Assembly (NCBI GenBank): GCA_902728285.1
Contig: CACVBU010001294.1
Coordinates: 1,178,001 to 1,242,000 of the forward strand
Reading direction: 5' to 3'
Length of the DNA stretch: 64,000 bases
Source: Clytia hemisphaerica
Taxonomy: Eukaryota; Cnidaria; Hydrozoa; Leptothecata; Clytiidae
The notes beneath the pieces are model-generated. The model had not been told where the DNA came from. It saw only the letters and a list, made by a program, of their open reading frames with translations, and did not search any database. Positions 5,736 to 57,331 of this stretch are shown one piece after another. Both the position numbers and the translations under genes were made by a program. Numbering within the stretch: position 1 is the first letter of the stretch; every line of letters begins with the position of its first letter.

Positions 5736-7564
5736 TCTAAACCCTTCTGATAAAGTTCCGAGAGAAACTCAACAACAAGATTCACAGGTGCTTCAAAGGG
5801 ATCCACCTGTTTCTGATCACACCACATGACCCACTTTCTCCAAGGCGTTTCGTAAGCACGTGTTGTACTTGCTCGCCTTGCCTGTACCATAATTTTGGAA
5901 GCTGATTCTGAAAATCCCTGCTCTTCCAAGCGTTTCCTGACACTAGAAATGCCGCAAGATGTAGTGTTTGATTTGAGACTAGTGGGCGTGATTCCTGCAT
6001 GTGATTTAAAAGAATGTTTCTCTTTTGAGGAATCAAGACTGGTTCTGCTATTAGCATTGATAGTAGTATTGGAAACCAATGCTGTCCTGGCCACAGGGGT
6101 GCTATTAGTAGAGCTTTCGGTGTTTTTTGATTTTTGAGAATTTTTAAAACCCTGCCCATTAGGCAAAACGGGGGAAACAGATACGGGTACTTTCCCCAAT
6201 TCTGATACAGCGCATTCGTTGCCAAGGATTCTGGATCGGGGTTTAAGGAGATGTAAAGTGGAAGTTTTCTCATTATTCTTGACGCAAAACAGTCCATCTC
6301 GGGTAATCCCCATCTGTTTGTTAGTTTTTGAAAAATCTGATTTGATAATTCCCATTCGCTGGAGTTGGCTCTCTGTCTCGATCTCCAGTCTGCTGTTTTG
6401 TTTTCCTTTGATGGGATCCATGACGCAGTAATCATGATCCCATTCTTGTCGAGGAACTCCCATATCCTTTTGGCTATCAGTGTTAACTTTACTGATTTTG
6501 TCCCCCCTTTTTGGATTAAGTAGTGCAATGCTGTCATGTTGTCCATGAAGATGTGAACTAATTTGGCTTCCCTGTCCTTCAAAAATGTTTTCAGTGCTAT
6601 TTCCGCTGCTAAGAGTTCTAACTCGTTTATGTGGAGGTTCTCCTTCTCCTCCCTGGTCCAAACTCCCCCTGTTGATCTCCCCCCTTCCAGGGAAGCCCCC
6701 CATCCTTCCTCTGATGATGCATCTTTGTAAATCACTGTGTCTGGGGTTCCCATTTTCATTGGGGCCCCTTGGCTCAGTGTTATGTTGATCACCCACCACC
6801 TGAGCTCTTCCAGGGATTCTAATGAGAGTTTCACTTCTGACTCGTACATTAACTCATGTTGTTGTCCCTTTATTAAATATTGTTGTAAAGCTCTCACCTG
6901 CATTGGTGCCATTGATATGGCAGGAGAATGTTGCTTGCAGTTTCCCTATAAGACTTGCAAGGTTTCTCAAACTTATCACTTCCTGTTTTAGAGTGTCCTG
7001 ACAGAGGTTCAATAGTTTTTTGACCTTTTCTTTTGGTAGCCACACTGTCAATGTGGTGCTGTTTATTATCATGCCTAAAAACTCCATCTCTTGGGATGGC
7101 CTGAGTTCTGACTTCTCCCAGTTTATTGCGAAACCAAGTTTCTGGAGCAGAAATAGTACACAGTCCCTCGACTGGATTGCCTCTTCCTTTGTTGATCCTA
7201 TGATGAGTAAGTCGTCTAAGTAGGCTACTAATTTCACCATCAGTCTCCTCAGGACTGTCAAAGGAACTTTTAACAATTTCGTGAAAATTCGTGGACCTGG
7301 TCCCACTCCAAAAGCTAGAACACACATCTCGTAAAGCTTTTTCTCCCAACGAAAACGTAAAAACTTTTGGCTCTCTTGGTGTATAGGGATATGCCAATAG
7401 GCATCTTTCAAGTCTATCTTTATCATGTGGTCTCCCTGATTCAACAGGTCTGACACATTTTTTATCCCTTCCATTTTGAAGTGGATGTAAGGCATGTAGC
7501 TGTTCACTTTCTTTAGATTGATAATTGGTCGAAATTTGTTTTCCTCCTTTTTGGGTCTCATAAA
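5729..7564 (-). pseudogene. DIRS reverse transcriptase and RNase H
   Basis: The RT starts at FMRPKKEENKFRPIINLKK and has the YLDD box in VAYLDDLLIIG and the primer-grip region NWEKSELRPSQEMEFLG. RNase H follows with DASSEEGWG, NELELLAAE, MDNMTALHYL and ADWRSR, holding the expected acidic residues. A one-base frameshift at about 6913 separates RT from RNase H (LQATFSCH in one frame, APMQVRALQQYL in the next). A further shift at about 5900 leads into the linker before the recombinase (VRKRLEEQGFSESASKIM). Its 5' part was cut off by the nested transposon. Confidence 0.9.
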
Positions 7565-7568
7565 AATT

Positions 7569-7900
7569 CTGCCGTGTTATGACAAAAGGAAGTAACTGCA
7601 AATTTTTGAATTTGAGAAAATTGATTAAACACGTTTTTTTTGGTATTGAAAAGAAAAGGCTTTCTGAGACATCACAGTAAGTTATTCTTGTTACTAATAG
7701 AAGGTATTAACATATAAAAGGGTTGTGGCAAGCAGAATACCACATGACATTTCGAAATCGGTAGACCTTCCACCTGTCAGAAGTTTAGATTTCAAATGAG
7801 TACCAAGGATTTGTGATAAAAGGAAGTAAGTAACTTTACTTCCTTTTATCAGAAAATGTCGTAGAGCTAAATAGACAGTACATTTCAGTTCCAATACAGG
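7569..7900. repeat. Terminal and subterminal repeats, left end of the nested transposon
   Basis: After the terminal repeat, the motif TGACAAAAGGAAGTAA recurs in variants near 7816 (gataaaaggaagtaa) and inverted near 7840 (ttacttccttttatc). Matching copies lie near the right end. Such clusters are typical transposase-binding sites. Confidence 0.6.
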
Positions 7901-8694: not shown

Positions 8695-11600
8695 TTATCG
8701 AGTGTCAAGCAAATCATCTAACTGCTTAACTTTGGGTAAGCTTTTGTAAAAATCCAACCGACTTGCTGGCATCAACGGACCCAATTTGTCAATGATATCA
8801 TCCAATTTCTTTTTGTTGACCCCTCTTGCTTTTGCTTTTTTAGCAACTTTGTATGATTTGCTTTCAATTGATTCCTTTATTTTCCTTTTCAGGAACAAAG
8901 CTTCTTTGAATTCTTCATTTCTATTGTGTGATGTTTTATAGAAAAATGACGTAGACCCTTTGCGAAATTCTGCCACTGAAACAGTATCCAGCAGTGGTCT
9001 TGTTTCGATTCCGCGCTTTGACTAAGGCCATGCTCATAATCAGCAAAGTCCTTAACATCCATTTCTTTAACATTACCAACGTTCGAAACACACTCAACGA
9101 AATCTTTCCAGTCACACACCTTCTTCATCTCCTTCATTTCCTTTTCTACCATGCGATGAAAATTGTCAGCTGACATAAAAGTGTGGCCAACAGTAAAATA
9201 CTTGAGGGTGATTCTTTCAGGCCCTTCAGTACCACATAAACTGGCATTAACAAATGCAGCTAGGGTAGTGTAAAGGGTCCAGCATTTATTTTGGCCTGAG
9301 CAATTATCTAACCAAATAACAACCTCTTTGCTATCTCGAAAATATACTGATCTTAATGCTGCAACGTAGGCACTTGTGACATCCTCGTCCTTCCTTCCAG
9401 AAATTCCTTCATGCCAGAGCACACCCAAAGCTTTGCTTTTGTGTAAATCAGCCTTGTTTAATGGGGCGAAAGTCTGATTTATCACAACAAGGCGTTTCGT
9501 AAAAAGGTTTAGCTTGAACCCCGGTAGTCTGGGAAGTAGAATTACCTTTTGCATGTCAGATGAAAGAAACAATACTTGGTTATCTGTAGCCCCAACTTGA
9601 CTTTTATCATAATGGTAGGCTTCTCTTGTTTGGACAGTTTTTGTGATGATTCGACCATGATGCACATACGAGACAGTCAGTTTTTTTACAAATCTTTTCA
9701 GTTTCTATATGTTTCATTTTTTCGATCTTTTCTTTTGGTTTTTGATCTTCCTTTGTTTTTTCTGTATTTTTGTTGTTTTGAGCACTTTCTCCTTTTGTTT
9801 TGTCTCTCGCCTTTTGTTTTTCTTTTTCTTCTTTAGCTCTTTCCTCTTTAAGATGCATCTTGTGGGACTCGCAAGTTTCGCATTCTTCATCCCCTAACTT
9901 TGCAAAGCTGATATTCAAGTCTCTGACTTGATTTGCATAAAAACCGTAGGATACAGTGGAATCACTATTCTCTTTGAAATTATTGTGCATGTCTGTAATG
10001 GATAATTCAGGTGGCAGATACAGTCTATTAGGGGCATGCTCCCTTCGATAATGGGAAATTTGGGGATGGAAGGAAAATATATGATGTTGAACTTCTTCCG
10101 TTATGGCTTCTGTAAATTTATGGCCTGGTGTATGTTTACCACGCATGTCGGGAGCACAGACGCCAAACTCGTTAACATTTGTGAGTGCTGTTGTGATGAA
10201 TTTGTCACTTTTATATCCAAGCGTTGCCATGAACATATTTTTGCAAATGTAAATTCTTTTTGTTGAACCTTCCGGTAACCAGTATTGCCTCTGAACCTTG
10301 GGAGAAGGCGTTGCATTGGCTGTAGTTGTGTTGGTCTGTCGTTTTGGTTGCTCTTGAGTTATATGGTTGAAAACCCAGGATTTTTGATCCACATAATTGA
10401 GATTCCAAAATTCCTCATGTAGTTTTTCCCTGAGCTTTTCATCGATAATTGTGAAACATTTCTTGTTGCAATCACAAGGAGGCTTTAGCGGATGTTTTTG
10501 TTTTGGTGTTTTTTCTTGTTTTTTTGCTTCCTTCTTTCTCTTTTTTTTCGATGGTTGTTCTGAATCTGTAAAAAAAAATCACCTAGATATAGATAACGAT
10601 TTTGATACCTTGTAAGATACCTAAGGCATTAGCTGAAAGAAATTGGCTAACTCTTGATTCTTTATTTCTCAGCAAACTTTTTGATACGATTAATTACTTT
10701 TAGTTACTCGTTATATTATCATTGCTTTTAGGTTGATTTCATAACTTAAACAATCTTTCAGTCTGACATTACAAACTTACCATCATCTTTTGTCTTGCTA
10801 TTACCATTCTAAAGAGATGAAAAAGTCTTTATTTATAATGCTATCCTCTGCTTACATAATGTCATAGAAGGTTTTTTCAAAACTAGATCCCGTGTATTCT
10901 GCTAACTACAATCTTTACAACTAAAGACATTTTTGCTTTTAGTCAGAATTTCAAGAAATTATGAAGACCTACTTGATTATCAACATTTGTGTCTTCATTT
11001 CTTTCCGATTCTGGTCGAGCAACCTCCATCTCATCAGCCTGAAGTGAATAAAACACATTTTTTAGTAACTCAGTTTATTTCTGAAATGTTTCCAAAAGAA
11101 GAGAGTAAGGGGCCAGAGAGGGACAAGCCAGAATTTCATGGAAATATAAAGACGACCTACTTGATTATCAACATTTGTGTCTTCATTTTTTTCAGATTCT
11201 GGTAGAGCACTCTCATCAGCCTGAAGTGAATAAGATACAAATACCATTACCTCGGTTATTTCCAAAATATTTACAAAAGTAGAGAGGAAAGAGGCCAGAG
11301 ACAAATCAAAATTTAATGAAAGTATGAAATCCTACTTGGTTTAAAGACTGCTCATCCAAAGTTATCTTTGATGTTACTTCAATATCAAATTCGACATCTT
11401 CCTTCTGAAAAAAAATGTTTTCTCATTTTTGAGTTATCTCTTAAAATATTATAATGAATTTCATGAAAGTATAAAGACCTACTTGATTATCAACATTTGT
11501 GGTGTCAGTTTTTTCAGGTTCTTGTTGTGTAACGTCCATCCTATCAGCCCGAAGTGAATAAAACACAATTTTAGTACCTCTGTTATCTCCTAAATGTCAA

Positions 11601-27841: not shown

Positions 27842-30074
27842 AATCTAAAGATAAATTTCTCTAATTTTCAAAGCTTTTTTAATATATTTTTCTAGCATTT
27901 TTAATTTGACCACATTTTCGCTCGTTATGTCTTCTTTCGATACTGATGTTGATTCCTCTCCTACTTTGTCCTTTAAGTCATTACATTCAAATAAATGTTC
28001 CGTGGTGTCGTCCTCTGTCTTGCATATCGGGCATTTCATATCTCTGTACTTTCCTTTGTAATTCATCTACTTTCATACTTAATACCGGGTGACCCACGAA
28101 AAAGTTCAGACGTTTCCCTACATCTTGAGGCCGAAAAAATGTCCCAAAGTGCTTGGAGTTTTGATATTTAGAAAGTAGATATCCTAACTTAGAATTTGAG
28201 CTATCACTTTTTAAATTTGACCAACTTGTTCTCTACTTATGAGCTTTTAAAGACAAAATTCACTTTTCGGAAAGTGTAAAAAACATGTAAAAAATAGGTA
28301 TTAAATTTATGCAATTAATTAGAAAATAACTTACAAATTGACTTATGTAACGAGTGTTATGACATTAAAAATTAATAAAAACACCTTTAAAAGTACTTTT
28401 TGTTTAAAACAAGACTAGTTTTTATAAAATTTGGCGCTTTTTCTAGATTTTTCAGATTTTTTTCAAAAACTGTATATCAAAAACGTCTAAAAATACCAAA
28501 TTTGATACCCCTTTTTTACGTGTTTTTTACACTTTCCGAAAAGTGAATTTCGACTTTAAAAGCTCATAAGTAGAGAACAAATTGGTCAAATTATAAAAGT
28601 GATAGCTCAAATTTTAAGTTAGGATATCTACTTTCTAAATATCTAAACTCCAAGCACTTTGGTACATTTGTTCGGCCTCAAGACGTCGAGAAACGTCTGA
28701 ACTTTTTCGTGGGTCACCCGGTATCTTCCTCATTGTGGCTTTGTCAGTTTCGTCTAAGTATTTCTTTCTTTCGAACCCCTTACTGTTTCTGTATTTTGTA
28801 CGTTTCGTCCATTCTTCGTTTTCAATACTTTTCGTGATGGCTTTTCGTATTCTTTTTTTCCACTCATTTTTTGATGTCTCTTTCACGCTCGTTGTGTCGA
28901 TTGCGTACTGGTCACATCGTTCTTTCAGTTCACTGTACCAACAATTTCGTATTTGATTCTCCATTTGGGCCTTTAGAATCTTTGCTGCTACCCTTTCATC
29001 TGGAGAATTGATTAGGTTGTGTAACAGTAGAAGTTTTTTGTAATTTATGTAGTGTCTTATAGGCCAAATGCCTAATTCACTTAGGAATGGCTCGTACGGT
29101 GTTGTTTTTGGCATTCCGTATATTCTCAATAACATATCTTTTTGCATTTTTTCAATGCTTGCCATTTCACTTTTTGAAATCGCACTCCAAGTTTCCATGT
29201 TCGACGTCACGTATGGAAGTGCCTTCGTTAAGTATAGCTTGTTAACTACTTTTCCGTAACTTTCTCCAGTGCAATCTGCATCTTTTATAATTGCCTTCGT
29301 AATTCCGTATATCTTTTTCTCCTTGTTTTGGATCGTATCTTTATATGTACCTTTGTTGTTGACGTAATCTCCTAGGTACTTATATTTATCGGTTTTGATA
29401 ATAGGGCCTTTTTTAACCCTTTTCTTAATTTCTACTCGATCTCTTTTTTCGCCAAATTCTAAAATTTGATAGTTACTTTTAGTTTCATTAAAGGTCATTC
29501 TCTTCTTTTCCTCCATCCTCGCACAGTTATCAATGGTTTTGGAGACGGTTTCTCTGCCTCCTGCTCCACAAATATCATCTACATAGGTGAGTGACTCTAC
29601 ATTTAAATTTGAATATAAGGTACTCACTTTTTCGCCGACTTTGTTCACCTTCTCTGTGGATACTGCACATAATGTTGGCCCCCAAATTGTTCCCTGACGT
29701 ACAATCTCCTTGGTTGTTATCTCTGCTGTTCTCCCGTGTGGCGTGTCCACCACTATTTTCGCTTCTTTGTTCATTTCGAAAATGATCATCGCCTCGTTAG
29801 CAGGTACTCCTGCCTTCCACGCTTCCACTATACAATCGCGAAGCCAGAGTTTGTCGAAACATTTCTCCAAATCACCATAGAACAAGTAAAGATTTTTGTT
29901 GTAATATTTCGCGTCATCAATTAGTGCTCGCATCGTAAAGAGATGGTCACAAATTCCCCTGCCGCTCCTTCCACCACACTGGAAAGGAGACATATTCTCT
30001 TCAATCGTCGTTTTGTTTCTATTGAGAAGGATTCTCTCAAAGATCTTGCTCACTATGCTCGTTAGAAAGATCCC
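27842..30074 (-). pseudogene. Non-LTR reverse transcriptase, truncated by the assembly gap and split by a MITE
   Basis: From the gap inward on the minus strand: FERILLNR, PFQCGGRSGRGICDHLFTMR, LYLFYGDLEKCFDKLW (first catalytic Asp), VRQGTIWGPTLCAVST and LTYVDDICGAG (YVDD box). A thumb and C-terminal region follow, ending beyond the MITE with the zinc knuckle KCPICKTEDD-x2-EHLFEC. The frame is intact from 30053 to the MITE at 28722. Removing the MITE and one TA gives MRKI|LSMKVDE. A frameshift then occurs at about 28065. The first part of the ORF lies in or beyond the gap. Confidence 0.9.
28085..28721. mobile_element. MITE with long palindromic arms, 637 bp, TA target site
   Basis: The ends CCGGGTGACCCACGAAAAAG are inverted and flanked by TA (28083-28084, 28722-28723). 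The arms extend over 200 bp each with few mismatches, so a long hairpin is possible. It is inserted within the reverse transcriptase C-terminal region. TA duplication suggests Tc1/mariner-type. Confidence 0.88.
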
Positions 30075-30248
30075 NNNNNNNNNNNNNNNNNNNNNNNNNN
30101 NNNNNNNNNNNNNNNNNNNNNNNNNNNNNNNNNNNNNNNNNNNNNNNNNNNNNNNNNNNNNNNNNNNNNNNNNNNNNNNNNNNNNNNNNNNNNNNNNNNN
30201 NNNNNNNNNNNNNNNNNNNNNNNNNNNNNNNNNNNNNNNNNNNNNNNN
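30075..30248. other. Assembly gap (174 N)
   Basis: Run of N bases. It separates the reverse transcriptase fragment from copy 2 of the dispersed repeat, so order and spacing across it are not certain. Confidence 1.
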
Positions 30249-30375: not shown

Positions 30376-30625
30376 TTAACCTCCACGGAACCAGCCGAAG
30401 AAACTAAAATAACAATGAAAAAAGAAGTGTACTTTCTACTAGACAAAGTTGCCACACCTTTGACACGTTTCTGCCACAACGTTGTAGAAAGCATACTAGA
30501 TGGGAAGGAGCTGGGATTGGATCGCCACTATTCAACCCTGTGGCTCTCACACACATTTTACAGTTCAAAGAAGAAGATGGAAAGAGTGGGAAAAGAATGA
30601 GAATTTAAAAAAGTTGGACTATAAC
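30376..30625. other. No clear gene
   Basis: A 61-codon open frame (30415-30600, +) matches no family I know. The segment may be the body of a repeat that ends in the promoter-like box near 30920. Confidence 0.3.
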
Positions 30626-30910
30626 CACTGACCTTTATATAACCCTGGACAAAGCTTCTCAATCTCAGCCAAGCAAAATCTTTGATCGGAGTTTTTTGAA
30701 AATTGGTACCCTAATGTCGGCACTACTCGATAGTGGTGTAAATGCATCGAGAGCGCTAGGTCTACTTTTCCTCAAATTCTTTTGATGATGTAGCGGCGTT
30801 AGACGTTAATTTTTAGCATTGCAATGGCTTCTCCTTGGGTACCAATTCTAAAAAAACTCCAATCAAAGATGGCAGATATTGCTTGGTCCAGGGTTATATA
30901 AAGGTCAGTG
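30626..30910. mobile_element. MITE, 285 bp, 8-bp target duplication
   Basis: The ends CACTGACCTTTATATAACCC are inverted, about 30 bp with one mismatch. ACTATAAC flanks it at 30618-30625 and 30911-30918. The 8-bp duplication is compatible with a hAT-type origin. Confidence 0.92.
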
Positions 30911-30945
30911 ACTATAACCCGGTTCGAAGCCCCGTACACCGTGAC
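30911..30945 (+). promoter_or_regulatory. Possible tRNA-type B box of a SINE or tRNA relic
   Basis: GGTTCGAAGCC matches the pol III B-box consensus. Removing the MITE joins it to 'ggactataacc' as in a tRNA anticodon-to-T-arm region. I cannot see a convincing A box, so this is weak. Confidence 0.3.
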
Positions 30946-31220
30946 TTTCTTCGGGCGGCACGAGGGCGCAAAATTTTTTTTTTATTCAGAAAGTCTAGGT
31001 AAGAGGTAACAATCTCAAATGTGCCAGTTAGTTTGTTATCATAGCTATAAGTTCACTCCATGAAGAGTGATGGGAAAGAAACGACTTCATACTGCAAAAG
31101 GACTTTATTAAAAAGATATATTAACACAAGAAGAACTTAACTAATTTGTCTCTTTTTGCAGATATTAAAAAATTAAATATTAAGTCCTTCTTAAGTCAAA
31201 CCAGGTCAAACAAGCTTTAC

Positions 31221-34200
31221 CTAGAATGTCAGTTTCGTCTGGGTCTATTCCCTCTGCGCGATTCAAAACAGTATGACAAGCAGCATACAAGTCAAATAAT
31301 GTCTTGAAAGTCTTGCAAACTTGGATGCTATCCATATGCACTTGCGAACCAGCAAGGTTATTCCTCCAAACATACTTCGGTAGAGTCTGAACCAACATTC
31401 TAATGTTTTCTCCCTAAAATTGATTTAAGTGTTACTTGATTTAAACTGATTAACAGTCAAGATTTGTATGATTTTTCCAGGGGAATATGCTTAATCGAAA
31501 TTTAGATAAATTGGCCAGGAGAAACTATGTGTAAAACAAAATACCTTTAGAAGCTTATTCACATGGTTGCCAATAAAAGATTTGCTGTGATAGGCCTGTC
31601 GTTCTACATTGACTGATTTCAACATATCATCCAAAGCTTTGGTACATTTCCCCTTCTTTAGCTGTTCTTCAATTGGCTTTAATTTCATGTATTCTCTGAT
31701 CTCTGATTGCTGAAATAGGAAAATAAAGCTGAAAATAGCAATCTCAGTCCAAACATATTTTGAATCTCAATTTTTTAAATCTTGTTAGTACTTGTCCTGG
31801 CCCCTGAAATAGAAAAAACTACCTTTTCTAGGATTTTCTCTTGGTTATGCTCGAGCTGAGGTTTAAACGCTTTATATATTTCCTCTTCTATTGTAGGGTC
31901 AGTGCTAACTTGGTGGGCAATAGCTGCTTCAATGATGTCGATAACCTCATGATGGCGATTTATTTCATCTTCAAGGTCAAAGATCTTCTGGTGAGTGGAA
32001 ATAATACTCTCATCACATTCTCCTTTTGCAGCTGCCATTTTAAGGTCAATCAACTAAAAAGAATATTAAGGTTATTCTGGGTTATTCCAGGTTATTCATC
32101 ATAAATTTTTAAGTTGATTTTTCATCAATTTCCTTAGGGGGCTGTCCACATAGTACGTACACATAAGGGGAGAGGGGTCTTCTCAAAAACGTATGCTTGC
32201 GTACAGGGGAGGGGAGGGCTCAAAGGAAAATGTATGCAGATATAATATTTTTCATAATCCTATTTTGCTTGTTTTTGTCTACTTTAATCCTTCTTTTACG
32301 CATCAAGGAAAATAAAAAGTTACCAATGCTCACCTCACAGTTTTTTCCAATAGATTGAAAAACTTTTTGAAGGTTCCCAACGATATATGGAGAGCTGGCA
32401 GTGCAACCTAAAGAGAATTTCAATATACTTTTTTCAGAATTTGGCAAAAATATCTTTGTTTACTCAAACTAAGGGCTCTTTGGTTTTGTTCCCTTCGATG
32501 GGCTAGCAAAAAGAATTCTAGTTACCTGATCAAGTGGAATGTTGAATAATCGTTTTCCTATCACGTTTTTACACAATTTTGCATGTTTCAGATCTCCCTT
32601 GTAGGTCTCTACAAATTTCTTCAGATTTTCATCCAAAGAGGCAAGTGCTCTTGGCTTGTTGTAGCGTTCGTCTTTGGGAATTTTTAGATCAGATTGTTTG
32701 ATGTCACACAACAAGCATGGGTACTTTCCTGAAAAAAGAAAAACTTTAGTTGTACACATAATTTGTTGATGAAACAAAAAAGATTTTCATGGTGGACAAT
32801 TGAAATTGGGCTTTTACAGTTAATAATAGTTAATACAGGTTAATACTTACCACTTGCTCCTGTCAACCCATAAGCTGCACACAAAAACTCATAGTCACCA
32901 GTAAAGGGGTGATCACTGTAAAAGAAATTTATAGTCTCAAAATTTTGATTATTGTTTTGGACCGGCTCTCTGTAATGATTGAGATGAGAATTTGATTCAT
33001 AAGGTCTCCTGGGGAATCCAATTTTAAAGCTGCGAGTTTTCTGAAATATCAAATTTGCTTTAAACAGATAGAAATATTGTTAAAGACTCACTTCCATTTC
33101 ATTTCTTGCAATTGGTCAACCTGACTCGTAAACATACTGAGACCTGTTCGTAGGTTTGGACGTTTATCCTTTGCTTCAAACAAGGAAAATACAACTGTAT
33201 TGTCCTTGCTGTTAGGATTCACAGTGTTGCAGACTTGATAACAGGCTTTGAACGACTTTCCTCCATGGTCACCGCCAATCTTGATATGAATTTCATGATC
33301 CATCTGTGGATGATGTACCAATCTGCCTTCCCTAAACATAAATATTTGTACCTGATTTTCAAAAGCTCTTTTTGAATTTTAGACATTAGAGAATTTCAAG
33401 ATATTTACCATTTATATATTTTCTTTCATAAAAAATGTCCTTTTTCTTCAGGAAGACTTACGTATCATTACGTATTGTTCACAAAGGTGACTACAGCACT
33501 TGGAAGATCAGGAATGAAGCCCCATGCAGCAGAACCAACTACGTGGACGCCCTTCTTGTCCTTTACATCAAATAAGAAAGGAGCTTTTTCTACGCAGAAG
33601 TTTTCACCACACCATTCTTTAGAGATCGCTCTTTGCTTATGGTTGGAAGCCATCGAAATGTTGAATGTTAACATCCATCTAATAGAAATTATAATTTCAT
33701 GTTAGATTGACTTGCCTGGACTGGAAAAAATTGTATCCACTTCACCTTTAATTTGATAAAGATTCAGTGTTGGTTAAGAAAAGCATATGACATACTGTAA
33801 GAATTGATTTTACCTTGAAAGTGCTTTCATGCGTTGCCAGGACAGGTCAAGGTCAGCTTTCATTGCAACTAATAGTTCAGCATCAATATGAACTGCCGAA
33901 ATACCACCATTATCCAAGATTTTCATCCTATCATCTGCCCCAATCGATTTTAAAATGTCTCTTGTTTGATGAAGAAATACCCCTCCAGAAGCCAAAGCAA
34001 TCGTCTCTCTTAATAATTTAGTTCTTTTTTGGATCGTGCGTTTTGATGACTCGGTGCTGTCCTTCTCTGCCGCAGGTATGACCGTCAACATCAATGGCTT
34101 GAAAAGTATTGAATTGAATTTTTGAAAATATTTTATTTGGTATCTCTTCACCACTTCCCACACCCTCCAACCTCATAAGTTTTCGCATTTTAATCTTGTT

Positions 34201-35309
34201 TAGTTTCGAATCATTTACATATTTTTCTACAGAATATGTTTGTAAAATATTTCTTAAAGTGCCTTCCTGAAGTTTTCATATCAGTATCAGTTCAAAGTTA
34301 ATTTATATTTTTAATTTTCATAATTTTTGATTCTTGTATTTATTTCTAGTATATAAAATAATAATCTCACCTTTGGTCCACCGGAAGAGATATTTATACA
34401 ATTGTTTCCTGAATTTTCAATTTTGTTCTTGATTAATACCCCAGCAAGTTTTTCGGCAACTTTTGGAAGGTTATCAACCGGTGCAATGCTCAACAAATCC
34501 TTTATTGAATAACCTTCGCAAGAGAGTTCGTGTTTCTTCTGAGCATATAGATCGTTTGTTGAAAATTTCTCACCGCAACCCTTCAAACAGGTCGAATGCA
34601 ATGTCATTAATAATTTCGATAAAATTTTGGATGGGATAAGATGATTCTTTGTAATTTTTTCATTGCAAATTGGGCAACACATGTCATTTTCATAACAACC
34701 CTCGATGGTGCGGATTAGACATCCAAAACAAAAACAATGTTGACACTTTGAAATCATCACAGGTTTTCTCAAAAGCTGACAACATAAATCACATTTACAT
34801 AAGGCCAGTTGTGGGTTCGACTTTTCATCGAAGTCTTGGAGGGAAAGATGAATCGGAAAAGGACTTAGTATCATGGCCTCTAGTTCTTCACTGTCAGATC
34901 TTGTCCAATATGTCGAATGTGATGCCGGTTGTCCTGATGGTCTACCCCTTCTGTTCTTGCCGCTCTTTGTTTTGTTTTGTTTTGGATTGTTTGTCAAAGT
35001 GTGGTACAATTCACATACCTTACAGGAATCGTCACTGTGGGGTAGCCAGGAGGGTCTAGTAACGGGACTTGATGTTGCTGTTGATCTTTTAGTGAAGTTT
35101 TTCATTTTGTAGTAGCACTTTATACAAATATTTTTGGGATAGTGACGGGTCTCTTCAAGGGATAAATCAAAATGAAAAGCAGGCTCGAGTTCAGCTCGAT
35201 GATTCTCCCATGGGTATGAAAATGGACCTTGTTTCTTCGAGGGTCTTTCAATCAAGACTCCACAAACCATACACAAGTCATTCATTGCCTTTTCGTGTAT
35301 TTCATCCAT
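31221..35309 (-). CDS. RAG1-like gene, 10 exons seen, 3' end missing
   Basis: Exons: 35309-34371, 34097-33814, 33678-33472, 33331-33092, 33029-32851, 32728-32526, 32407-32339, 32053-31823, 31709-31545, 31413-31221. All have GT-AG introns and agreeing phases, giving about 903 codons without a stop. Residues 13-99 have CxxC pairs (13/16, 62/65, 96/99) like the zinc-binding N-terminus of RAG1. Residues 173-215 form a C3HC4 RING (173, 176, 189, H191, 194, 197, 212, 215), and 241-264 a C2HC finger as in the RAG1 dimerisation domain. In the core, D498 (KIGGDHGGKSF) and D602 (GDYEFLCAAYG) correspond to the first two catalytic Asp, 104 residues apart (108 in RAG1). The zinc CLLC follows D602 by 19 residues, as in RAG1. 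PALHISLG and GNHVNKLL match further RAG1 core blocks. The catalytic Glu would lie in unseen exon(s). It may be a transposase of the RAG1/Transib or N-RAG-TP/Chapaev-related type, or a host gene. Confidence 0.85.
32130..32225. repeat. Repeat fragment in a RAG1-like intron
   Basis: 'ggctgtccacatagtacgta' and 'gcgtacaggggaggggaggg' are half-matching inverted pieces. They look like a short degraded repeat inside intron 7. Confidence 0.4.
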
Positions 35310-35869: not shown

Positions 35870-38230
35870 TCACTTGTTTCTACCGCCCTCTCGCTTTGAT
35901 CTGACGCCCAATTCTAAAGATTCGCGCGAATAGCTTGCGCTGAAAAGCCGTGACCGCAAGAGCTGGCGAACGAGTGAATCTTGAGAGAGTTGAAATCTTG
36001 AAAATTCTGAAAAATGACGAACTATAACCCGTCGAAGACTGTAATCTAACTTTGCGTTTTCAGCACCTTGACATCGCATTCTTTGTATAAAAACTTTGGC
36101 TTTAACTTTCAAGTCCTCGAAAAGTAACGTAGAACGAGCAATCCTGAGAAGTTCACCAACAAAAGAAGAATAAAAAATCGATTCTGGCAAGTTGCTATCT
36201 TTATGTGGCATTCGGACTATGGAAAAAGGAAATGCATCCCGTTTATCAAACAACTTATAAATAAATATCCCGTCTTTGATGGTAATATCCAGGTTTAAAA
36301 AAAAAGCATGATTACCAGAGTACTCAATTTTGAGTTCAAGCTCATCTGGATAGATATCTCTATACACAGACTGAAACAAGTTACCGTCATTGATCGCACA
36401 CAAATCATCAATGAATCTTTTAGTCGAATGAAAATGGCGAGCCTTAACCTTATTTTCCTCGATGACTCTGCTCATATACCTTTGTTCGTATTGGTAGAGG
36501 AAAAGATTAGCCCAAAATGGCGCCGGGTCGATTCCCATGGGAATCCCGATCACTTGACACATAACAATATCACCTGCATTGAAAAAACAATTTTTTATCA
36601 GATGTTTCATAGCAGTTTTCAAAGAATTCTGTGTAAAAGACACAGAAGATTTGGGTTTTGTTTTTGACCAATACGCTTTATCATTTTTAGAAATAGCGAT
36701 AAACTTGCAGTTACCTGCATCAAATACAAAATCAATGACCTCTGATAGTTCTTTAATCAGTTTGTCATGAAGAATCTTTGTGTACAATGTACTAAAGTCA
36801 AAGGTGGAAATAGATTTGGCGTTTTTCTTTTTATTGATTCGGTTGAGTGAATCTAGTACTGGATCACAATTTTGTAGTACCCAAAATTTATTATAATTGC
36901 TCAAAAACTTGTTGCTTTTGTATGGAAATTTTCACCTTGTCTGTAAACAAGCTTAAAAACTAGACTGACAGATCTAGAAATCAGTTTGGTGGAACAATGT
37001 TTTGAAGCGATAATGAAACGTTTACCAGTAGGAGTCTTGTGTTTCTTTGGAGTCCAATAGATGCATGGAAGATCCAAGTCCTTCTCAGAAACAGCAAGAC
37101 CAAAACGTTTAGAAAAACGAACATTTTCATTCACCATTTCTGCTTTATTCTGATTAACTCTAATGTATGTTTCATTTCCTGCACCCAAAATCCCAATCTC
37201 CTTCAAAATTACTTCAACATAGAAACGTTTACAAATAAATGCAACGTTATTAGCAGCTTTATCAATGGGGACAATAACAAAATTAGTGGTGTAAAAAACA
37301 TTCAAATAATCAAACAACATCTTGTCTTTTGAGCACAGAGCTCACTTTATTGTACCTGATCTTCTTTTTCAAAAATTTTATCTTTTTATCCACCTGTTTT
37401 AACACTTCAACCTTCCATTGAAGAAAGTTTTCGTCAGTCTCATTAATTTTGGCTGAAGTTTTATTCACAAAACTATCCAGACCCAGACCACTAGAAATAA
37501 CATCTCTGCATTTATTCCAATTGATATTTCGAGGTTCACGATAATTTGGTCCCTTGGATATCAATTTTCGCAAATGATTATTTTTAATGAAACTTAAATC
37601 TCCGGTCATGATATGACCATGGTCTAGATCAATAAAAGGAGAATCGTGACACTCACAAGATGGAAGGTTGGTGCCAAAAGTTTCTAAATCTGCTGTATTG
37701 ATGGAATTTACAGTTTCTTTATGATTAAAGATTTTATTTCTAATCGTAGGAGTTAAAGAGTAAACAATCGATTGTGGATCTTTTTGAAGTTTTTCAGGAA
37801 GTTTGGAATTCACACAAGGCTTGCGAAGAATATTTTTGAGCTGAATAAACTCAAGACCTTTATTGTGGAAATAAATAGGAAGGATGTGGGAAGGAGATTT
37901 CTTAACATTAGCTTTATCAATTTTCATAGTCTTCGTAAGAAAAGTATCAATCAATAATTCATACCATCTTTTCAGATGGCTTTCGCAAGAAAAAAGTGAA
38001 GTGCTAGCTTGTTCTGCAAGTTTTCGTAAATTTGACTGTCGAAGCCTATCAAACAAAATGCGACATTTCTTGGAACGTTCTTCCGGAGAAAAAGAAAAAA
38101 TGGAATGAACAAGAGAATCTAGATCAGAGATCCTAGCCTCAACTTTGGAGCGGTAAAGGTGCTCAACAAACTTAGTGCCATGTCTGGGAAGAGGTGGAAA
38201 TAATTTCCCAGCCGGAATATCCTTGTTCAT
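35870..38230 (-). pseudogene. Penelope-like element reverse transcriptase, two frameshifts
   Basis: The N-terminal part (38230-37310) has CECHDSPFIDLDHGHIMTGD and LRKLISKGPNYREPRNIN, typical of Penelope-like proteins. The middle (37320-36901) has FVIVPIDKAANNVAFICKRF and YWTPKKHKTPTGKRFI. The last part (36904-35870) has STFDFSTLYTKI, IGIPMGIDPAPFWANLF and RFIDDLCAIND (DD box), then FLNLDITI. The frame changes at about 37315 and 36901. No GIY-YIG endonuclease is recognised after the RT, so it is either an endonuclease-lacking type or truncated. Confidence 0.88.
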
Positions 38231-54336: not shown

Positions 54337-57331
54337 CCTTATAACATTGAACTGTAATGGTATCAAAGCCAACTTTGTATATGTGAATAACTTAATAACA
54401 AACAATGACTTTATTTTTCTATCAGAGCTATGGATCACCACAACAGAAAAACACATCCTACACAATTTCAATAAAGACTTTCACTTATTCTTTGTACCAG
54501 CTCAGCAGGGCATCACTGGTCGACCACATGGAGGATCTGCCCTACTACTAAGAAGAACCAAAGTATCTAACCCCGAACTGATACTAGAAGAGGATTTTAC
54601 CATCATTGTCAAATCATTGGTAGGCTCCATTGATATTCTTTTTATTGGAGTTTATTTACAGTGTGTATCAAACAAAGAAAACTACCGAGATACTTTTTCA
54701 TCCCAACTAGCATCTATTGGTGGAATCATCAACCATTTCGAGGACACCTCTGAAATTATTGCTTTTGGGGACTTTCAGACCTGCCCATCAAACCATGCAT
54801 CAGTCAGACTCTCTAAACCCAACCCACTTACACCGATACTCGACGACTTTATCGAGCTCTAACACCTAACTCCCATCGACATCACCCAGGGAAGCGGTCC
54901 CAATTTCACTTATCACCATGCCTCACTCGATAATAAATCATACATTGACCACATCATCATCTCACATGGGCTCAATATCTCTGCAAGGAACACGCATGTT
55001 CTAGACTGTCACCCTATCAATGTGAGCGACCACCTGCCAGTCAAATCAACATTCAACTTCACCGCCGTCACTCGAGACCATCAATCCAAAATTCTAGAAA
55101 AGGACTCTGTTCCAAACTTTATGTGGAAAAACGAACTATTTCAAACCACATACCAATCACTCGTAAACGATAACTACCTACCTACATAGAAAATGACGAC
55201 GAAAACAATATCAAGCAGATACAATCTATTCTGAAAAACTGTGCCCTCCAGGCGTACAATGACATTAAATCTGATAGAGACTTTCACCAAATCAAAACGA
55301 AACCGTGGTGGAACCAAGAACTGTCGCAGAAAAGAAAAATTCTTCAGAGTAAATTTAATGACTGGAAGGCAGATGGATTCCAAAAGGACCCTGAAAACGT
55401 ATTCTTCTGCCGATACCTACTAGCAAGAAAAGACTTTCGGTCACTAGTCAAGAAATGCAAAAATCAGGCTGTGGCAGACCATTACATCAACATAGAAAAA
55501 ATAAAGAAATCTAACCCAAGATCCTACTGGTCCAAAATTAAACTAGCAAAACATTCATCTCAAAAACTCTACACAATTAATAACAAGACAACCGTTAAAG
55601 AAATAACAGAGGAATTTAGTTCACATTTTAACAAACTGTTGAATACTCCAAGAACGAACATTATCAACAATGATGAATCAAAATATGCTGCTTAAGGAAG
55701 TCCTTGATGACCTAAGCAACTCGGATAGAGACTTTTATGTGACCGAAATGGATGTTAGAACAGCCATCCAAGGCCTCAACAAGAATAAAGCCCCGGACCC
55801 TTTTGGTATCAAAGCTGAACATCTCATCAACGCTATGTACAGTCAAAATCTATCATCTTACCTAGCTCAGCTGATCAATGATATTTTCCAAAACGAATCA
55901 TTACCAAATCTACTTTCAAGGTCATACATTATTCCTGTCATCAAATCGTACAGAAAACCAGTAAGTGACCCAAATAACTATAGGGGCATTAGTCTCATAC
56001 CCATAATAACAAAACTGATTGAAAAGATAATTGTAAATAAATGTCCGCAACTCAAGGATCATAAGAATGCTCAATTTGGCTTTGCATCAGATGCATCCAC
56101 TTTACACGCAGAATTTCTGATAAATGATACTATTTTGAAATATAACACCGAAGGGACCCCAGTGTACATTTGCAGCCTTGATGCCGAGAAAGCGTTTGAC
56201 AGCTGCAATTGGTATCAACTATTTGACAAACTCCATCAAAACAACACTCTTCCGAAATTGGTCATTCGTTTTCTCATCAACCTCTACATGAACGGTGAAG
56301 CTAATACGAAATACAAAGGAACAGTATCGAACAGCTTTACACTATCCCAAGGAGTACGACAAGGCTCAATAATATCTCCATATCTATACAACCTGTATAC
56401 AGAAGAACTCATCCAGAGAATACAAAACCTATCGATTGGCACCTATCTACCCCCAGGCATCAACACCTCCATTATAGTATTTGCCGATGACATAATCCTG
56501 ATGAGCCCCAATCTATACCAACTACAATACATGATCGATGAATGTGTCAGGTTTGGCCTACCGAAAGGCATCAAATTTAACAGCGACAAGAATAAAACCC
56601 AATTTGTGATCTCAGGAATCAGCCCAATCGACAACCCTGTACTGAAAATGAACAACGAGACAATTTACCCACAGAAAAAACTCAAGCATCTTGGCTTCAC
56701 CTGGTCAGTCCACTCAAACCATATTTCTCTTCTCAGACATAGACAGGATCGCATTTCTGAACTGTGGGCGGTGACTTCGTCCCTAGTATCGAGCGGGATT
56801 CGTAAATTACACCCAGACACAATCACCACCATATTCAAATCAATAGTAATTCCAAAGATGCTCTACGGAATGGAATTAGTGGACACTAATAAATCATTCT
56901 CCGATCTGATGAATAGGCAATGTCGGTCGGCTCTCAAGTGCTTGCTGGGTCTCTCGAAACACTCAACAAATGAACTGTTAAAGCACTACCACCTATACGA
57001 TACAGCACATTTGGTGGACCAACGAAAAATCAACTTTGTCAAACAACTTTTGAAAAACGAAACTACTCGGAATTATCTTTTCAACCTCTTACACAGTGGA
57101 AGTCAGTCTTACTCTTGTATGAAAAAAGTTTTTGAAATTTGTTCTACTGAAAATGTTGATTTGGTTAGTTTAATTCTGAACCCAACCTTGAAATATAGAA
57201 TGATCGTTGATGGAGTAAACAACTTGGATCCGGAAACTGAGCAGAAATTGAATGACTTACTGACTAACTGGCACATTTATGAGAATAGAAAAGAACTGAA
57301 GGCAATGCTTCATAGATTTATACCATCATAG
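54317..57331 (+). pseudogene. Non-LTR retrotransposon ORF2: endonuclease and reverse transcriptase
   Basis: APE-type endonuclease motifs: LITLNCNGIKANF, FLSELW, GRPHGGSALL, IIAFGDFQTCP, YIDHIIIS and VSDHLPVK. Reverse transcriptase motifs: NNYRGISLIPIITKLIEKII, CSLDAEKAFDSCNW (first Asp), LSQGVRQGSIISPYLYNLYT and VFADDIILMS (FADD). TAA at about 54860 replaces a probable Gln codon (IEL*HLTPID). A frameshift lies in a CTAC repeat at about 55180, and another at about 55690 where two frames overlap. From 55670 to the end (553 codons) the frame is open. The copy is nearly complete and recently inactivated. Confidence 0.9.

Follow-up and report, generated by a model that had tools for sequence, protein, structure and literature searches.

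Does the minus-strand gene at positions 31221 to 35309 of the Clytia hemisphaerica stretch analysed here (64,000 nucleotides, positions 1,178,001 to 1,242,000 of contig CACVBU010001294.1, assembly GCA_902728285.1; hereafter the window) unite both halves of RAG1? A preliminary description of the locus read it as a RAG1-like front joined to a RAG1-type core, and our study supports this interpretation in part. The front is RAG1-like, as a family profile of the relatives matches residues 101–491 of RAG1 at E 2.1e-14 and the N-terminal fragment 21wb at 4.8e-12, whereas the core matches the Pfam family DUF1280 with 47.8 bits (cut-off 25). DUF1280 (PF06918) has been equated with Chapaev (Majorek 2014). 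We judge that the locus is probably a copy of a Chapaev-type transposase gene with a RAG1-like front, formed by a Chapa region and a RING, and that this copy is most likely truncated at its 3' end and unable to cut. The incompleteness of the protein had been overlooked previously.

Apart from the start of exon 5, treated below, the gene model was confirmed, with ten exons read from 35309 to 31221 that join in phase into 865 codons with zero stops, and every inner exon border bears AG/GT. A full-length profile from 73 relatives, from which the window sequence was left out, recovered the pieces in order on the minus strand, nine of them at E ≤1.4e-6 and exon 8 (31823–32053), a variable helical insertion, at 0.61; no other frame of the window was found under E 1. 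Exon 3 (33472–33678) has a weak donor and was placed by splice scores, the in-phase join and the profile. The limits of exon 7 (32339–32407), which carries the conserved block PALHISLG, were set from eight border combinations tried, one of which was stop-free, and exon 9 (31545–31709) carries the conserved block RQAYH..GNHV; both are backed by alignment and profile. By the profile and the list of open reading frames, exon 10 (31221–31413) is the final recognisable coding piece.

Seven database proteins matched the joined protein at E ≤1.4e-49, and further searches, with an alignment as query and then with the core of relative P0008 (at least 100 proteins), brought the relatives to at least 102 in all. 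Among the matches listed were proteins of Hydra, several echinoderms, lancelets, an acorn worm, an abalone and a sea slug, together with identifiers that we take to be those of the sponge Sycon. The best relatives are 27–45 % identical to the window protein. A Pfam scan of the 46 relatives of at least 800 residues found DUF1280 in all 46, RAG1_imp_bd in 23 and zf-C3HC4_2, the commonest RING model, in 10. In a tree of the window protein and 42 chosen relatives, the window row fell inside a clade of 15 rows, the others being the ten Hydra rows (every one that was included) and four more (support 100/99), on a long branch of its own (0.99). This placement makes a cnidarian host likely. Two uncharacterized Hydra vulgaris proteins of this clade, LOC124815234 (P0002) and LOC136081893 (P0006), are 37 % and 45 % identical to the window protein. 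Unlike the window copy, several of the H. vulgaris proteins retain a GEQGGE tail, and some are without the Chapa front. In Chapaev, the Chapa zinc region is followed by a RING in some subgroups. Chapaev transposases with both domains (Kapitonov and Koonin 2015, PMC4411706) share the core family of the window protein and the order Chapa, RING and DUF1280 core, but the window copy differs from them in having no C-terminal zinc and glutamate segment within the window and a spacing of 66 residues between its catalytic aspartates, where 70 is usual.

This spacing required a correction to the earlier reading of the core. Exon 4 (33092–33331) holds a DUF1280 block, identified by Pfam, alignment and profile, and the first catalytic aspartate, D498 (codon 33270–33268), which is invariant in one alignment of relatives and at least 90 % conserved in another. 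The second aspartate had been given as D602, 104 residues further on; these figures result when exon 5 starts at 33029, an acceptor that scores 2.9 and takes in 38 residues of intron. The acceptor at 32915 scores best (8.1) and yields exon 5 at 32851–32915 with D564 (codon 32896–32894) as the second aspartate and a spacing of 66; the acceptor at 32969 is a close second (7.4) and would give a spacing of 84, along with 18 residues that the relatives are without. Among 102 relatives examined by residue pattern, both residues were found in 79 (23 were unreadable), with a spacing of 70 in 62 of the 79 and of 71–75 in the other 17. Compared with relatives, the window protein is missing four residues before D564. 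The interval of exactly 19 residues between the second aspartate and the zinc CxxC is real and leads to C583 and C586 in exon 6 (32526–32728, placed by alignment); D498, D564, C583 and C586 all occupy invariant alignment columns.

The zinc motifs described for the front are likewise present. Exon 1 (34371–35309; 313 amino acids) holds the paired CxxC motifs of a Chapa-type region (residues ~1–100), a C3HC4 RING (~170–216) and a C2HC finger (~240–265), and its predicted model superposes on the RINGs of TRAF6 and RAG1, TRAF6 being as close as RAG1. In the Chapa region the window protein has the same conserved positions (C, P, W and H) as the relatives that match RAG1_imp_bd, and its Chapa kinship rests on this alignment. 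Exon 2 (33814–34097) carries a GGPKP segment and a helical region where RAG1 has its nonamer-binding and dimerization domains. The profile alignment with RAG1 spans it, but the segment at the nonamer-binding place, searched alone, found no RAG1. In a few relatives the Chapa region also resembles the zinc-finger-associated domain (zf-AD), with a weak match in 2 of 46 and a match to the solved chain 7po9 (LD30467p), presumably a fly ZAD protein, at E 0.05. These matches may hint at a zinc fold in common with the front of RAG1.

What the window copy seems to lack is the end of the protein. Complete relatives continue for ~100 residues with TPKxHxLExH and GEQGGE, to a total of 960–970 residues, of which the window copy retains about the first 865. 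The tail, with its HxxxxH zinc pair and catalytic glutamate, was undetected in the 64-kb window by tblastn and tail profiles. Of the near-invariant residues, 48 of 50 are kept in the body (to position 865 of P0001) and 0 of 12 in the tail; 13 relatives scored by the same count kept 40 to 50 of the 50 body residues. Since neither the zinc histidines nor the catalytic glutamate turned up in the window, the copy has most likely lost its 3' end and would be a remnant that cannot cut. Truncation is the simplest reading, and if it is correct the active site could not form. The absence of the tail concerns the completeness of the copy and not its kinship with Chapaev.

It could also be proposed that the copy is complete and the element perhaps active, its last exon lying in an assembly gap or displaced beyond the window. 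The ten stop-free exons and the well-kept body residues would suit such a copy, as would the GT donor (CTAG/GTAAAG) right after exon 10, at 31221, and a run of 174 N at 30075–30248, ~1 kb downstream, which could hide or mark the lost 3' end of the gene. However, the gap falls within a reading frame for a reverse transcriptase, and this frame goes on beyond the low side of the gap, ~31 kb of downstream sequence is without the tail, and profile similarity may extend a few residues beyond the GT, in frame, to a stop at 31180–31182. We consider a complete copy unlikely. Still less probable is a domesticated host gene in the making, in which a Chapaev protein would have shed its catalytic glutamate and zinc histidines while its Chapa, RING and DNA-binding parts were retained under selection. 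An intact frame and splice borders, and a body conserved as in complete relatives beside a missing tail, fit this proposal, but no sign of an orthologue was seen (the best relatives have the identities of 27–45 % given above, and the tree offers only the long window branch), several reverse transcriptase frames lie around the gene, and the four residues before D564 are missing. If true, it would point to a factor in, for example, transposon silencing or chromatin, and to a second route of domestication beside that of RAG1.

Several observations weigh against the truncated Chapaev copy that we prefer. Its reading frame is unusually well kept for an old remnant. The RING of the window scores 16.6 bits, below the Pfam cut-off of 21, although its model superposes as described, and no RAG1_imp_bd match was obtained for the window protein in a Pfam scan up to E 10. 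Finally, a search between 26000 and 40000 for terminal inverted repeats and a target-site duplication came up empty, in a gene whose 3' end is missing, and the transposon nature of the copy is shown only by kinship.

The surroundings of the gene contain repeats. Just downstream lies an element of ~300 bases (30618–30919) resembling a miniature inverted-repeat transposable element, palindromic with 36-nt arms (92 % complementary) and with the direct repeat ACTATAACC on either side. An inverted repeat at 28082–28724, with 227-nt arms that are 93 % complementary and 189 nt apart, lies where a reverse transcriptase frame has its low end. Reverse transcriptase (RVT_1) frames occur at 28638–30071, 6857–7576, 55643–57328 and 35873–36931, the last below the Pfam cut-off, and the window is thus rich in mobile elements. 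The frame at 8892–9704 matched Pfam DUF7869 at 27.3 bits (cut-off 26).

How close, then, is this protein to RAG1? Its family is a distant cousin of RAG1, the enzyme by which antibody genes are assembled, with an identity of only 11–15 % to RAG1 and RAGL. Vertebrate RAG1 and lancelet RAGL resemble the window family in a Chapa-like front, a RING, a finger and an RNase H core with a zinc insertion, but differ in that the aspartates of RAG1 are 108 residues apart, against 66–75, and no RAG2 partner was seen at the window. A complete relative compared with RAG1 has the RNase H fold, and its catalytic and zinc residues (D, D, C, C, H, H and E) align with those of RAG1, the H, H and E from a stretch that is not significant alone. 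It is nonetheless highly improbable that the locus is a genuine RAG1L gene from a RAGL (RAG1L–RAG2L) transposon. Domain order and fold are RAG1-like, and Martin et al. 2020 (PMC7204232) report RAGL elements in cnidarians, one of them, from Aurelia, without a RING domain. Against this, Pfam gives DUF1280 and did not list the RAG1 core family (PF12940; presence of the model in the library unchecked) for the window (E to 10), for eight relatives (E to 1) or for 46 relatives (E to 0.001), and the aspartate spacing is 66 here and 70–75 in all 79 readable relatives. No RAG2-like frame stood out: ten open reading frames of the window gave no kelch or PHD match, and seven plus-strand frames of at least 75 amino acids in 20–31 kb included, by eye, none that was RAG2-like, no kelch profile having been run on the whole window.

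Two other groups are of note. Transib is described in the literature as having no identifiable domain outside its core; the window protein, compared with HzTransib, has Chapa and RING ahead of the core and was not assigned to Transib. The N-RAG-TP transposon of Aplysia was reportedly presented by Panchin and Moroz in 2008. PMC8355894 describes it as carrying a RAG1-like N-terminal part only; the window gene likewise has a RAG1-like N-terminus, but continues into a core.

In complete relatives, a dimer would most likely bind the element ends, as RAG1 and Transib enzymes do, and a D-D-E metal site in the RNase H fold would cut DNA, as the fold and the residue alignment suggest, with the RNase H insertion presumably held by the zinc site CxxC ... 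HxxxxH. Like that of RAG1, the RING could act as a ubiquitin ligase. Computation has shown the family, the complete relative's fold and its residue alignment with RAG1, while DNA cutting, end recognition and any ubiquitin ligase activity are inferences.

A RAG1-like front joined to a core has already been published, and no first description is claimed here. Kapitonov and Koonin (2015; PMC4411706) proposed that Chapa, RING and core stood in one ancestral protein, whereas a rival view, given in PMC8355894, has an N-RAG-TP element later joined with Transib. If the three parts were together in the common ancestor, no such later joining would be needed. A single incomplete copy does not decide the origin of RAG1. 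In summary, our study adds a whole-length profile match and compares a complete relative with RAG1 by fold, for a family that bears on the origin of the N-terminal half of RAG1.
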